From positions 1 through 64,000 of the forward strand of contig JAQWNP010000014.1 in the NCBI GenBank assembly GCA_029268515.1: a stretch of DNA of 64,000 bases, written 5' to 3'. Position numbers and translations under genes: made by a program. Shown here one piece after another: positions 1 through 4,012 of this stretch (position 1 is the stretch's first letter; each line of letters starts with the position of its first letter). The notes beneath the pieces were generated by a model that was given only the letters and a program-made list of their open reading frames with translations, searched no databases and was not told the DNA's origin. The stretch comes from Phycisphaerales bacterium (GTDB taxonomy: Bacteria > Planctomycetota > Phycisphaerae > Phycisphaerales > SM1A02).

Positions 1-38
1 GCGGGTGAGGCGATTCGAACGCCCGACATTCACGTTGG
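1..38 (-). repeat. tRNA-Gly remnant A (3' half)
   Basis: These 38 bases are identical to the 3' half of the intact tRNA-Gly at 3262-3299: acceptor 3' strand, T arm, variable region and the 3' side of the anticodon arm. Identity stops inside the anticodon loop. The following bases no longer pair into an anticodon stem and show no D arm or 5' acceptor strand, so this is not a functional tRNA. It lies exactly at the window edge. Confidence 0.85.
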
Positions 39-238
39 AAATGTCACGGTGGGTAGGTAGGTGTGTCGGAAGTTGATTTAATCCAGCGGGATACGTCTCA
101 AATCTACTATCCACTGTTCATATCGAAATGAGCCGAATAACCCACGGGATTACCATCCAGTTGATGTCTGATGAGTGTGTTCTCCAGGACGGTTGATTCG
201 ATATTCTGTGTGCATCTACTTTGCTGAGGAGCACCACA

Positions 239-817
239 ATGACAACCGACACTCGTATCGAATCACTTGAAACTCAAGTCCGCACACTGAAGCGAATGCT
301 CTTGGGAGTATTTGGATTGGTTGTTGTTGGAGTACTACTAGGTTGGGCAACACCGCGAACGTCCCCAGATGTACTTCGCTCAAAGCGGCTTGAGATTCTC
401 AGTGACAACGGAACACCAGTAGTGGTCCTTGAGGCAAGCCGAGTCTTTGACAGTGTAGATCAAGAGGGCCATTTTGCTGGCAAATTGATTTTGCAAAACG
501 ACGATGGCAAGCAGAACGCAAGTTTGGGGCCAGGTGACTTTGGAGGAGGAAGCCTGAGCATTAACAACAAAGACTCAGTAACTGTGGTGGCACTAGGATC
601 TTCGATCAATAATGGTGGTAGTGCCTTTGTGAACAACAGTACTGGCAAGACTTCTGCCGCCATCAGCTCAAGTCCTACTGGGGCCGGGTGGCTTACTGTC
701 AATAGCAAAGATGGGAATCGAGTTGTCGCACTTGGAGTGCGTCAAGACGGGGGGAATGTCATCACGTGGGCCTTGGATGCAATGACCATCACGTCAAGAC
801 TGCCAGCTCCGAAGTGA
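239..817 (+). CDS. Membrane-anchored repeat protein, function unknown
   Basis: The gene encodes about 192 residues. The ATG at 239 is preferred over an upstream TTG because a GAGGAG Shine-Dalgarno lies 7 bases before it. The protein starts with a short polar, probably coiled-coil segment (MTTDTRIESLETQVRTLKR), then one membrane helix (LLGVFGLVVVGVLLGWA, about residues 22-38). The rest is a series of short Gly/Asn/Ser/Val-rich repeats with the loose pattern L-x-V-N-x-x-x-G, as expected of a stacked beta structure exposed outside the membrane. I recognise the architecture (coiled coil, TM, repeats beginning with a motif like SKRLEILSDNGTPVVVL) as a type seen in planctomycete hypothetical proteins, but no function is assignable. 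It sits alone between two tRNA-Gly remnants. Confidence 0.75.
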   Translation: MTTDTRIESLETQVRTLKRMLLGVFGLVVVGVLLGWATPRTSPDVLRSKRLEILSDNGTPVVVLEASRVFDSVDQEGHFAGKLILQNDDGKQNASLGPGDFGGGSLSINNKDSVTVVALGSSINNGGSAFVNNSTGKTSAAISSSPTGAGWLTVNSKDGNRVVALGVRQDGGNVITWALDAMTITSRLPAPK

Positions 818-820
818 TCA

Positions 821-859
821 CCTTGCCTATGGGCTACGAGGCAAGGACGGGGAACCCCG
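821..859 (+). terminator. Two hairpins after the first cassette gene
   Basis: A perfect 8-bp stem (CCTTGCCT at 821-828 with AGGCAAGG at 839-846, 10-base loop) begins four bases after the stop codon. It is followed by a tight second hairpin, CGGGG-AA-CCCCG. There is no clear run of T, so termination is likely but not proven. Confidence 0.5.
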
Positions 860-964
860 CTGCACATCGAGGGGGGGTGTCTTCTTTCTGAAATAACCAA
901 CAAATGGATGGTCGGTGGTTTCTGCGAAATGTGGATGGTAGAAGTCAGCGCAACACCATCGAAA

Positions 965-994
965 AACCCCCGCCACATCTCGGTGACAGGGGTT
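965..994. terminator. Decayed AACCCC/GGGGTT hairpin
   Basis: AACCCC (965-970) pairs with GGGGTT (989-994), with partly matched CGCC/GG inside. It sits just before tRNA-Gly remnant B, in the same position as the perfect hairpin at 3063-3090 holds relative to remnant D. I read both as terminators that once followed a tRNA-Gly gene on the minus strand. The rest of the 818-1238 gap holds only this hairpin and remnant B. Confidence 0.45.
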
Positions 995-1010
995 CAAGGG
1001 TTAGAAGGCT

Positions 1011-1080
1011 GCTGAGGCGATTCGAGGCTGAATGAAGGTCCCGCGCAGCACACCCCGATATCCAGGTTGGAAACGTCACG
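1011..1080 (-). repeat. tRNA-Gly remnant B (interrupted)
   Basis: Bases 1011-1026 match the tRNA-Gly 3' end (TGAGGCGATTCGA core, 15 of 16 against 3264-3279). After about 24 unrelated bases, the stretch from about 1051 to 1080 resembles the variable/anticodon region, including GTTGGAAACGTCACG. The anticodon stem no longer pairs. It is a degenerate copy of the unit at 3261-3332. Confidence 0.6.
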
Positions 1081-1291
1081 GGTCCTTGACTCGTTGCCCC
1101 GACGATTGCCGGCGCCGCGTCCCGCACCTTCGGTCTCCCCGAGACGAACTTCGGATCCCTCGAGACCGGGCTGACCTCTCGATTAATCGGCTAGGATACG
1201 TCTGAGTAAGACTCGCCACGATCGGCGAACCTGACCGTACATGCATTCCCGACACCGACCGATACCAACCGATACATGGAGACTCAGCGCG

Positions 1292-2845
1292 ATGCAGGAC
1301 CCGAAGAACAGGATCTCGCGGCGGACCGCCCTCAAGGGTGCGGCGGTCAGCGGTGTCGGACTCGTCGTCGGAAGCTTCTTCGCCGAACAATTATCGAAGC
1401 AGGTGGCAGCATCACCGGAGGGCATCTTGGGATCAAACGAAGAGTGGTTCGCGCAACGCGCGTGGAGCGTGAGCGCCAACAAGGTGCTCCCGAAGGCGGA
1501 TGGGGCGACCGGCAACGTCACCACCCTGGCCAGACGGATCGAGTTTCCGGCATCTGCCGAGGAGATCGCCGCCATCGTGACGTCGCTTCCAGCGACCACC
1601 CCGATCGCCTGCGTATGCGGTGGACACGAGTCGTCGGGCGCGGCGCTCGTCGCGGACCGCGATGCGGTGATCCTCGACCTCGGTCGCCTCAAGTCGATCG
1701 ATTTCGAGTCGTCCGACGACGAGACTCTGGTCACGGTGGGGGCCGGAGTGGTCTTTCGCGAACTCGTCGAGGCGGTCAAGGCCCACGGCGGCGCGTTGCC
1801 CGTGGGCACCGGTCCCGGCGTCGGCGTGGCCGGGTACACCCTCAACGGTGGGCTGAGTGGCTACTTCTCCAGGCGGCTCGGTCTGCTCGGCCAGCGTGCC
1901 GTGAAGATGACCGTGGTGACCGCCGAAGGCGAGATCCGCGTGTTGACGCCTGATGACGAACTGTTCACGGCGATGCTCGGTGCGGGAAGTGCGCTCGCCA
2001 TCGTCGTCGACATCACCTTCGAGATGGCCGACGCCAGCGCCGTCAAGGGTGCCGAGCAGCTCGTCTTCGGATATGAGACGCGGGCCCAGGCGGTCGAGTT
2101 CTCGAAGAAGGCGATGCGGTTCATGAAGGAACGGATCATGCCGAACGAGTCGGTCTCGCTCGAGATCGTCGTGACGGGCACCAAGGCGATCGTCGCCACG
2201 ATGGTCTTCTACGACACCTTCGAGGGCAGCACCACCGAGTTCGTCGAGCCGCTCGAGCAGCTGGCATCGGGCATGAAGCTGCCGACGCTCGCGCGGGCGC
2301 ACTGGGCCTCGTGGTACGAGGCCGCTGCCGCGCTGTGGCCGGTGATCGCCGAGCAGAAGGGGAATCCGCTCGCGACCAGCTACCACTGCGCCGGCACGAC
2401 CGGTATTCCCGAAGACGCCGTGCTCGACTTCGTGGGCGACGTCGTGGTCGGCGAAGCGCCGCTCGACGAGGCCGAGATGTCGATCGTCGAGATCCGGACG
2501 CTCGGTGGCCAGGCTCAGCGGGGGCCGCGGATTCCCAGCGGCAACTGCGATCACGCGTTCTTCGTCGATCTCGTCACGCTCTTCGACGCCAGTTCCAAGT
2601 CCCTGGCCCAACGGCAGGAGATCGTGGATCTCACAAACCAGGTCGTCGACAAGTCCCGCGCGGTTGCGGGACTCGACGTCGATTTCAGCGGCACCCATTC
2701 GCAACCGGACGATGTCGACAGATCCGCGATCGCCGCCGAGATCTTCGGATCGGCCGAGATGGCCCGTGCCGTCGAGACTCAGAAGAAGCTGGTGGACCCC
2801 GTCAATCGGTTCAGGTTCAACCCCTTCTCGAAGTTCGTGGGATGA
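1292..2845 (+). CDS. Tat-exported FAD-binding (PCMH/VAO-type) oxidoreductase
   Basis: The product, about 517 residues, is a flavin-dependent oxidoreductase of the vanillyl-alcohol oxidase/berberine-bridge superfamily. The ATG at 1292 has GGAG 10 bases upstream and places a twin-arginine signal (RISRRTALKG followed by a hydrophobic stretch) at the N terminus; an in-frame ATG at 1241 would bury the signal. The FAD-binding PCMH domain follows: CGGHESSGAA in the position of the usual GGH pyrophosphate loop, then GVGVAGYTLNGGLSGYFS resembling the family's G-x-T-L-G-G-G loop. The protein ends with a typical NRFRFNPF berberine-bridge C terminus. Substrate is unknown. Codons end overwhelmingly in G or C, unlike every later gene, and the gene is bracketed by tRNA-Gly remnants, so acquisition by transfer is likely. 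Confidence 0.85.
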   Translation: MQDPKNRISRRTALKGAAVSGVGLVVGSFFAEQLSKQVAASPEGILGSNEEWFAQRAWSVSANKVLPKADGATGNVTTLARRIEFPASAEEIAAIVTSLPATTPIACVCGGHESSGAALVADRDAVILDLGRLKSIDFESSDDETLVTVGAGVVFRELVEAVKAHGGALPVGTGPGVGVAGYTLNGGLSGYFSRRLGLLGQRAVKMTVVTAEGEIRVLTPDDELFTAMLGAGSALAIVVDITFEMADASAVKGAEQLVFGYETRAQAVEFSKKAMRFMKERIMPNESVSLEIVVTGTKAIVATMVFYDTFEGSTTEFVEPLEQLASGMKLPTLARAHWASWYEAAAALWPVIAEQKGNPLATSYHCAGTTGIPEDAVLDFVGDVVVGEAPLDEAEMSIVEIRTLGGQAQRGPRIPSGNCDHAFFVDLVTLFDASSKSLAQRQEIVDLTNQVVDKSRAVAGLDVDFSGTHSQPDDVDRSAIAAEIFGSAEMARAVETQKKLVDPVNRFRFNPFSKFVG

Positions 2846-2875
2846 ACGCCCGACATTCACGTTGGGAACGTGATG
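2844..2875 (-). repeat. tRNA-Gly remnant C
   Basis: GAACGCCCGACATTCACGTTGG matches the T-arm, variable and anticodon 3' region of the intact tRNA-Gly. Here the anticodon stem (TCACG/CGTGA) is still complementary, but the loop reads as a CCC anticodon and both the acceptor and D arm are missing. The stop codon of the FAD oxidoreductase lies right at the junction, as if the copy joined the end of that gene. Confidence 0.7.
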
Positions 2876-2930
2876 GTGTGTAGTTGGAATCAGTGTAAAG
2901 CACAGTTACCTAGGTGATTGTGACGGATTC

Positions 2931-3037
2931 TGACTAGTCACTTTTGTCACAACATATGTTGCGAGATACACGATTGCCTACAGCAAAGTGACTAGTGAAA
3001 GTGACTAGTAGGTGGTTTTGTAACAGAACTGACTAGT
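2931..3037. repeat. Cluster of four TGACTAGT repeats
   Basis: The octamer TGACTAGT occurs at 2931, 2989, 3002 and 3030. The first copy is part of the 10-bp palindrome TGACTAGTCA, and the second and third are in tandem 13 bases apart with shared AAAG before them. A further palindrome, CAACATATGTTG, lies at 2950-2961. The cluster fills an otherwise gene-free stretch. It could be a multi-site operator or a recombination/replication element; nothing in the window identifies the partner. Confidence 0.6.
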
Positions 3038-3062
3038 TTCTCAGAGCGTCACTATATCAATG

Positions 3063-3093
3063 AATAACCCCTGCCGAAGCAGGGGTTATTTTT
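3063..3093 (+). terminator. Perfect 12-bp terminator hairpin
   Basis: AATAACCCCTGC (3063-3074), a CGAA tetraloop, and GCAGGGGTTATT (3079-3090) form a perfect stem followed by three more T, so it works as an intrinsic terminator on the plus strand. It precedes tRNA-Gly remnant D with a spacing like that of the intact tRNA and its own terminator, so it may also have served the minus strand. Confidence 0.75.
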
Positions 3094-3097
3094 GAAA

Positions 3098-3115
3098 GCG
3101 GGTGAGGCGATTCGA
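3098..3115 (-). repeat. tRNA-Gly remnant D (3' end only)
   Basis: Eighteen bases, GCGGGTGAGGCGATTCGA, match the 3' end of the intact tRNA-Gly exactly, including the preceding GAAA. The match then breaks off in the T arm. Confidence 0.8.
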
Positions 3116-3123
3116 CGCCGAGT

Positions 3124-3196
3124 CCGGGCGGTAGCCCGGGCGAGATGCGTAATGACTGCTGCGGCGTAGCCGCAGCGCGGGCCCGCCGTAGGCGGG
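3124..3196. repeat. Row of three GC-rich hairpins with GTA loops
   Basis: Three perfect inverted repeats follow one another: CCGGGC-GGTA-GCCCGG (3124-3139), GCTGCGGC-GTA-GCCGCAGC (3158-3176) and CCCGCC-GTA-GGCGGG (3182-3196). All share a GTA-containing loop though the stems differ. The arrangement resembles REP/BIME-type palindromic units. No transposase is nearby. Confidence 0.6.
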
Positions 3197-3211
3197 GACG
3201 CACAACCGCGA

Positions 3212-3253
3212 AAGAAACAAGGCGTGCCCGCCCGGAGGGTGGATCACGCCTTG
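3212..3253 (-). terminator. Terminator of tRNA-Gly
   Basis: Read on the minus strand, CAAGGCGTG pairs with CACGCCTTG (9 bp, GC-rich loop) and is followed by TTTCTTT. It begins eight bases after the tRNA 3' end, as expected of an intrinsic terminator. Confidence 0.75.
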
Positions 3254-3260
3254 TGGCGAA

Positions 3261-3332
3261 AGCGGGTGAGGCGATTCGAACGCCCGACATTCACGTTGGC
3301 AACGTGACGCTCTACCACTGAGCTACACCCGC
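3261..3332 (-). tRNA. tRNA-Gly (anticodon GCC)
   Basis: The minus strand folds into a complete cloverleaf. The 7-bp acceptor stem is GCGGGTG/CACCCGC, the D arm GCTC-AGTGGTA-GAGC, the anticodon arm TCACG-TTGCCAA-CGTGA, and the T arm has a TTCGAAT loop. The anticodon GCC reads GGC/GGU glycine codons. The discriminator is T and CCA is not encoded. The gene is the intact member of a family whose fragments lie at 1, 1011, 2844 and 3098. Confidence 0.97.
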
Positions 3333-3493
3333 AATCTATGCAATTGTCGGTTCACCACATGGTGAACCAGGAGGCTTTTTCGGGGGGAGGCCCGAATCAG
3401 CCAGGAGGCAGAGTATACCGACTCCACATCTAGCCGGGCAAGCATCTGCTGAAACATCTTTAAGGGGCAAGGATCGAGGCCGCTGAAAGGCCC

Positions 3494-4012
3494 TTAGCTT
3501 TGCCCAATCAAGACACCCGCAAAGAGCACAATGGTGCCACCAATAATGACTTGAATACAAGCCTTCCAGAAGGATGTTTTCATATATCGCTTGCGGATCC
3601 AGGCAATTGAGATCAGCTCAATGATGACCACGATAATGGCCACCACCATGGCGGTATGGAAGTTGGGAATGAGGAAGGGCAGGGTGTGACCAATGCCACC
3701 AAGGAAGGTCATACCACCACAAGTCAAACCTCGAACCACGGGGCGCCCTCGCCCACTGATCTTGCCATCGTCAGAGAGCCCCTCAGCAAAGGCCATCGAG
3801 ATGCCCGCGCCAACAGCAGCGGCAAGACCAACAAGAAAAGCCTTGTTGGTATCTTCGGTCGCATAAGCAGCGGCAAAGATAGGGGCCAAGGTTGAAACTG
3901 AACCATCCATCAAACCAGCTAAGCCTGGTTGAACAACTTCAAGTACGAAGTTCGACTTTGGCTTTGTCGACGTGCCCTTATCAAGTGATTTTGAGCTTGA
4001 TGTATCTGACAT
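3494..4012 (-). CDS. VIT-family iron transporter, MbfA C-terminal type
   Basis: The 172-residue membrane protein belongs to the VIT1/CCC1 family and most resembles the transporter half of MbfA, the bacterial erythrin-VIT iron exporter. Diagnostic segments are VQPGLAGLMDGSVSTLAPIF (residues about 27-46), GAGISMAFAEGLSDDGKISG and GGIGHTLPFLIP, the last two enclosing the family's metal-handling loop. Four or five membrane helices are predictable by eye. The N-terminal ferritin-like domain that MbfA normally carries is absent; instead there is a 25-residue polar tail. It probably moves ferrous iron or manganese out of the cytoplasm. The gene stands alone, with about 160 featureless bases between it and tRNA-Gly. 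Confidence 0.85.
   Translation of the reverse strand: MSDTSSSKSLDKGTSTKPKSNFVLEVVQPGLAGLMDGSVSTLAPIFAAAYATEDTNKAFLVGLAAAVGAGISMAFAEGLSDDGKISGRGRPVVRGLTCGGMTFLGGIGHTLPFLIPNFHTAMVVAIIVVIIELISIAWIRKRYMKTSFWKACIQVIIGGTIVLFAGVLIGQS

Follow-up and report, generated by a model that had tools for sequence, protein, structure and literature searches.

The window analysed here, a stretch of 64 kb that forms the start of contig C14 in a 3.2-Mb draft genome of a Phycisphaerales bacterium (G000), contains an intact tRNA-Gly(GCC) gene and several partial copies of the same gene, with single genes between them. The locus raises the question of how these copies and genes came to lie next to one another. The initial annotation proposed that cassettes had been gained, either by integration at the tRNA gene or by recombination between tRNA-Gly units. 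Our comparisons support such a gain, and integration is the better supported of the two processes, because the copies end sharply at the anticodon loop, which is the outcome of a tyrosine-recombinase crossover. We consider it likely (probability of about 0.75) that small cassettes devoid of integrase were integrated serially and site-specifically into one tRNA gene, by a recombinase supplied in trans.

The tRNA-Gly gene and its partial copies in the window

The features of the locus are collected in Table 1. The intact gene is where it had been annotated, and an Rfam scan of the window returned only two tRNAs and no other RNA family. Four partial copies in one orientation had also been noted. 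All of them are colinear with the intact gene, and their scores were compared with those of 400 dinucleotide-preserving shuffles of positions 49-3261, the highest of which is 16: copies A (42), C (28), D (19) and the right piece of copy B (17) score above every shuffle, while the left piece of copy B taken alone (14) is equalled in 4% of the shuffles. Copy A runs to position 48, not 38, and copy B consists of two pieces. Between 3333 and 64000, there is no match comparable to copies A-D (best score 13); searching the whole genome with tRNA-Gly also returned full-length tRNA-Gly genes, located on contigs C8 and C12, whereas the matches on other contigs are short and weaker.

Table 1. Features of the tRNA-Gly locus (positions in the window)
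Feature	Position	Strand	Remarks
Intact tRNA-Gly(GCC), integration site	3261-3332	-	ARAGORN and Rfam
Copy A, partial tRNA-Gly 3' half	1-48	-	94% identity; at contig end
Copy B, decayed partial tRNA-Gly 3' half	1008-1025 and ~1050-1080	-	two pieces; 89% identity for 1008-1025
Copy C, partial tRNA-Gly 3' half	2844-2873	-	97% identity over 30 nt
Copy D, partial tRNA-Gly 3' end	3098-3119	-	96% identity
Terminator hairpin of intact tRNA-Gly	3217-3254	-	
Terminator hairpin of copy D	3063-3090	-	cassette end common to G100, G224, G003
Terminator hairpin of copy B	~965-994	-	cassette end 853-1025 common to G100, G224, G327
Youngest interval, ~140 bp, gene-less	3120-3260		brings the present tRNA trailer, unlike that of sister species G001
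Gene-less mini-cassette	2874-3097		matches at its two ends to a 560-bp cassette of G100
FAD_binding_4 oxidase, 517 aa, cargo of cassette 2	1292-2845	+	weak twin-arginine signal match
192-aa protein, cargo of cassette 1	239-817	+	hydrophobic, membrane-like segment at the N-terminus; no Pfam family

The hairpins described on the minus strand, 3' of copies B and D and of the intact gene, are all present. In copy C, the outer part of the half and the terminator were lost through a deletion between GAAC repeats (2844-2847), and it is because of this deletion that the stop codon of the FAD oxidase gene runs directly into the middle of the tRNA half. The unlike composition of the intervals was confirmed as well: the GC content is about 0.49 at 1-750, 0.65-0.68 at 1251-2750 and about 0.52 beyond 3500. 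The gene-less part of the locus matches a piece of G100 (L130) at 2844-2996, 3006-3071 and 3054-3119. From copy D to the terminator of the intact gene (3120-3216), the sequence is filled with short GC-rich hairpins, such as GCTGCGGCGTAGCCGCAGC. The 192-aa protein has about nine more weak matches elsewhere in G000, on contigs C12, C5, C20 and C4. Positions 78-98 and 1183-1203 share a motif that could have been an attachment arm; this reading was dropped, since the motif recurs upstream of homologues of the FAD oxidase gene and may be a promoter.

The first base of the window is a contig end, and coincides with the first base of copy A. The intact tRNA-Gly genes of G100 (contig C38) and G328 (contig C4) likewise lie at most 50 bp from a contig start; tRNA-Gly arrays seem to break assemblies.

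Crossover point and cassettes common to several genera

The initial annotation suggested looking at close relatives, and these have like fragments with different gene content at the same tRNA-Gly gene. Across 40 relatives, many tRNA-Gly matches are confined to the 3' half of the gene. Two halves and an intact tRNA-Gly gene are found within 3.5 kb in G003, four halves in 9 kb in G036, arrays on two contigs in G014, and at least eight halves on two contigs in G100, where both contigs start with ends of the FAD oxidase gene and a third contig starts with an intact tRNA-Gly gene. For the sole control tRNA, tRNA-Leu(GAG), a search of these 41 genomes gave no copy of the 3' half. In the sister species of the same genus (G001), 98% identity extends through tRNA-Gly and the match ends 4 nt past the 3' end of the tRNA. 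It should be kept in mind that most of the compared genomes are draft MAGs, in which the arrays are often located at contig ends. An exact pattern of the 3' half, searched over GTDB contigs, gave ten records, nine of which are named as Phycisphaerae or lower taxa thereof; the tenth, "Planctomycetales bacterium" (ZRK34), is classified in the order of the window. Applied to 301 genomes, the exact pattern also catches apparent intact tRNA-Gly(CCC) genes, and it was therefore excluded from the estimates of frequency.

The position of the crossover was examined by comparing 26 halves, each with the tRNA-Gly of its own genome or of its type. The identity is 0.96 at positions 1-37 and 1.00 at positions 40-41, then falls to 0.69 at position 42, 0.50 at position 43 and 0.28 over positions 45-71, so that it is at background level beyond position 42. 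The wobble base (position 39) is variable (0.77), and some of the loops would fit tRNA-Gly(UCC) or (CCC). The shared part ends in the anticodon loop or just beyond it, which places the crossover in or beside this loop. In the intact gene of the window, this loop (TTGGCAA, 3296-3302 on the plus strand) lies inside an inverted repeat, CACG..CGTG. Tyrosine-recombinase cores located in tRNA genes usually look like this.

Several halves, as in copies A and C (positions 39 and 2866), have TTGGAAA or TTGGGAA loops, which would fit the anticodons of tRNA-Gly(UCC) or (CCC). One cassette of the 192-aa family, that of G240, is located at tRNA-Gly(CCC). Isoacceptors of tRNA-Gly may be alternative targets.

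The unit is a cassette that consists of a gene, a terminator and a tRNA 3' half. A cassette encoding a 427-aa protein is 89% identical over 1,471 bp between G003 (L031:8345-9813) and G100 (L131:5636-4168), and the match stops at tRNA position 44, 3 nt beyond the anticodon loop. The idea that gene junctions coincide with the ends of the tRNA fragments is borne out for this one cassette compared between genera, in which the end of the homology is that of the fragment within 3 nt. This cassette adjoins the intact tRNA-Gly gene in G003, and is internal, with a half only, in G100. Its gene-proximal 107-116 bp differ between the two genomes, and the second boundary is therefore imprecise. In a third genus (G007), the same gene is beside an intact tRNA-Gly gene, with 90% identity over the last 42 aa, the rest being cut off by a contig end. 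Among 181 genomes of the family of the window, copies with about 90% identity are found only in G100, G003 and G007, all of them at tRNA-Gly or at halves; four copies with 54-57% identity have no tRNA-Gly gene or half in the stretches that were read.

The cargo of the window is also found in relatives. Those of the FAD oxidase are patchily distributed (18 of 151 genomes), the FAD oxidase cassette being absent from the sister species G001, and behind the relative in G100 (94% amino acid match) there is a terminator and then a tRNA half. Homologues of the 192-aa protein adjoin tRNA-Gly or its fragments in G240, G230, G327 and G328. The cassette ends, up to about 170 bp that extend through the terminator into the half, form families across G000, G100, G224, G327, G003 and G001. 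A separate family is that of the cassette starts, which is found in G014, G230 and G327, and in a weaker form in G008.

The cassettes had initially been described as single-gene units. This holds for the window and for many relatives, where many intervals consist of one gene (several coding for apparently exported proteins, some with weak dockerin matches), but some intervals contain several genes, so that the description fits much of the cassette family, not all of it. The interval at 586-6032 of contig C6 of G100 contains about five genes, including those of a GNAT acetyltransferase, a photolyase-related protein and an alpha/beta hydrolase. In G123 (contig C34; L136 2867-11845), a 9-kb interval without integrase extends from an intact tRNA-Gly gene to a half and contains what reads by eye as a phosphate-uptake and regulation operon.

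We propose the following mechanism. A circular cassette would carry one or more genes, or none, a terminator, and the 3' half of tRNA-Gly up to the anticodon loop. The anticodon loops of the cassette and of the chromosomal tRNA-Gly gene would be joined by a tyrosine recombinase, which we infer to be provided in trans by a visiting element. The incoming 3' half and terminator would then take over as those of the working tRNA, and the old half, with its terminator, would be displaced outward and mark the previous cassette. Repetition would produce a polar array, with the youngest cassette next to the tRNA and older junctions decaying. In the genomes compared, one per species, neither circular cassettes nor a filled and an empty site of one species were seen. 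We are highly confident that the locus is an array with this polarity, and there is good support for serial integration at tRNA-Gly.

The search for a recombinase and the alternatives

The absence of integrase from the window, already noted in the initial annotation, holds: the three Phage_integrase genes of G000 are located on contigs C6 (two) and C11 (one), while C14 is free of them, as are the contigs with arrays in G100, G003, G014 and G331. Two Phage_integrase genes each are found in G100, G014, G230, G331, G328 and G240; in G100, G014, G230 and G000, the best matches of such a pair are XerC and XerD, with scores slightly under the curated equivalog cut-offs. The third integrase of G000 (398 aa; L150 = G000:C11:76000-79742, 2246-3568) adjoins tRNA-Val(TAC) at a contig end and belongs to a separate integrated element; it was rejected as the enzyme of the array, its neighbour being tRNA-Val(TAC), not tRNA-Gly. 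G003 has two further Phage_integrase genes, with equal scores, and the stretches read around them contain no tRNA gene. Serine recombinases of the resolvase type are absent from nine of the ten genomes tested, and the viral contigs of IMG/VR contain, by the patterns used, no tRNA-Gly half, no tRNA-Gly integrase and no 427-aa cassette protein.

Large islands with integrases at tRNA-Gly(GCC) are found in G032 and G048. Their integrases are 83-88% identical to one another and have homologues elsewhere in the order, but no integrase of this type was detected in G000, G014, G100, G019, G007 or G008. Five relatives of this island integrase, two of which have internal stops, are spread over 450 kb of contig C1 in the 7.4-Mb genome of G054. 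In sum, the array genomes examined in the family of the window yielded no dedicated recombinase for the tRNA-Gly site; since most of the genomes are draft MAGs, with arrays often at contig ends, the absent integrase could sit in an assembly gap.

The islands of G032 and G048 make it conceivable that the locus is what remains of ordinary integrase-bearing tRNA-Gly islands whose integrase and most of whose cargo were later deleted, and copy C indeed shows deletion at work. We regard this as unlikely, since three genera share the 427-aa cassette at about 90% identity, its two complete copies are small and integrase-free, and the cognate integrase was not detected in the six genomes listed above. 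We are about as sceptical of the idea of a cassette system in its own right, circulating among genera of Phycisphaerae, in which tRNA-Gly would play the role of attI, the two ends would be a variable start and the terminator with its half, and the enzyme would be neither an integron integrase nor that of a resident island, possibly XerC/XerD or an unrecognised one. It is somewhat less probable still that homologous recombination alone reshuffled arrays among relatives, using the conserved tRNA and the cassette ends. The array genomes examined have no dedicated recombinase, the cassette ends are similar enough for exchange over short homology, and the cassette shared by G003 and G100 has differing starts, all of which would agree with such exchange; it leaves unexplained, however, why, in one genome after another, the anticodon loop is where the fragments stop, and how new cargo first gained its terminator and half.

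That XerC and XerD of the host move the cassettes is very improbable in our opinion, even if no other tyrosine recombinase was found in G100, G014 and G230: the core CACG-TTGGCAA-CGTG is unlike the dif site described in the literature, and Xer proteins are present in nearly all bacteria, which are not known to form arrays of this kind. An assembly artefact or a chance similarity might be suspected, as the window starts at a contig end inside a copy and the composition changes sharply between intervals, but this deserves hardly any credence, given that the copies exceed all shuffles (except the left piece of B alone) and that the same units occur in independent genomes of many genera. An RNA-mediated origin, in which a tRNA half and its terminator would have been copied, was discarded because the homology reaches past the terminator into the cassette. 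Serial integration, with a recombinase supplied in trans, is the reading that we retain.

Comparison with known systems

Integrons resemble this locus in being polar arrays of mostly single-gene units at one site. No integron integrase was found, however, only XerC and XerD, plus the tRNA-Val integrase in G000, and the folding of six junctions hardly exceeds that of shuffles, if at all (z from -0.2 to -1.8), without an attC-like fold. The junctions are mostly GTTGGCA, GTTGGAA or GTTGGGA and do not fit the integron consensus GTTRRRY. The integron reading was rejected on the grounds of the missing integrase and fold.

The classical tRNA islands or ICEs of the same order, in G032 and G048, use the same tRNA and have the same half repeat; unlike the array, they are tens of kilobases long and encode a tyrosine integrase of 490-500 aa, whereas the elements of the array do not contain an integrase of their own. 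Tycheposons are tRNA-associated cargo elements of aquatic bacteria, 4-200 kb in size, with a tyrosine recombinase (PMC10872708); such an enzyme with large cargo next to the tRNA is not found in the array.

Additive flexible genomic islands are closer, since they too grow by small cassettes added at a tRNA gene and marked by part-tRNA repeats, and variable cassettes at a tRNA gene are what we observe. In "Candidatus Actinomarinales", direct repeats of part of a tRNA lie at the cassette ends and cassettes are transferred across genera, with no recognisable mobile elements (PMC7771536). In the fGI-2 island of Methylophilaceae, it is the last 20 nt of tRNA-Lys that are repeated, and a unit contains 1-63 genes, with sizes from 330 bp upward (PMC10872708); these repeats are only 20 nt long, unlike the halves described here. 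What sets the present locus apart from additive islands is that the crossover is placed at the anticodon loop, that each cassette has its own terminator, that the end families extend across genera, and that the recombinase content was checked.

The ssrA islands of Dehalococcoides, which arise by tandem accretion, also have many tandem repeats of the 3' end of a single RNA gene; 15 of them are without an integration module and 16 have a module with a serine recombinase, and the insertion point is the T-loop of the tmRNA (PMC3146451). Attachment sites kept without an integrase of their own, as in cis-mobilizable elements, are also what the array genomes examined contain. Unlike in Dehalococcoides, no integrase was found near the arrays of the family of the window, and many units consist of one gene.

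The nearest known kinds are therefore additive flexible genomic islands and the tandem accretion of cis-mobilizable elements, and the locus belongs with them. Compared with the open-access literature on these systems, our analysis adds a mapped crossover, the terminator and half as the moving end, and a check of the recombinases. Additive tRNA islands were already known in aquatic bacteria; here, the same cassettes are found in several genera without a dedicated recombinase having been found, which makes the question of the enzyme that builds the arrays directly testable, and the array offers a simple way of reading in which order genes were gained beside a tRNA.
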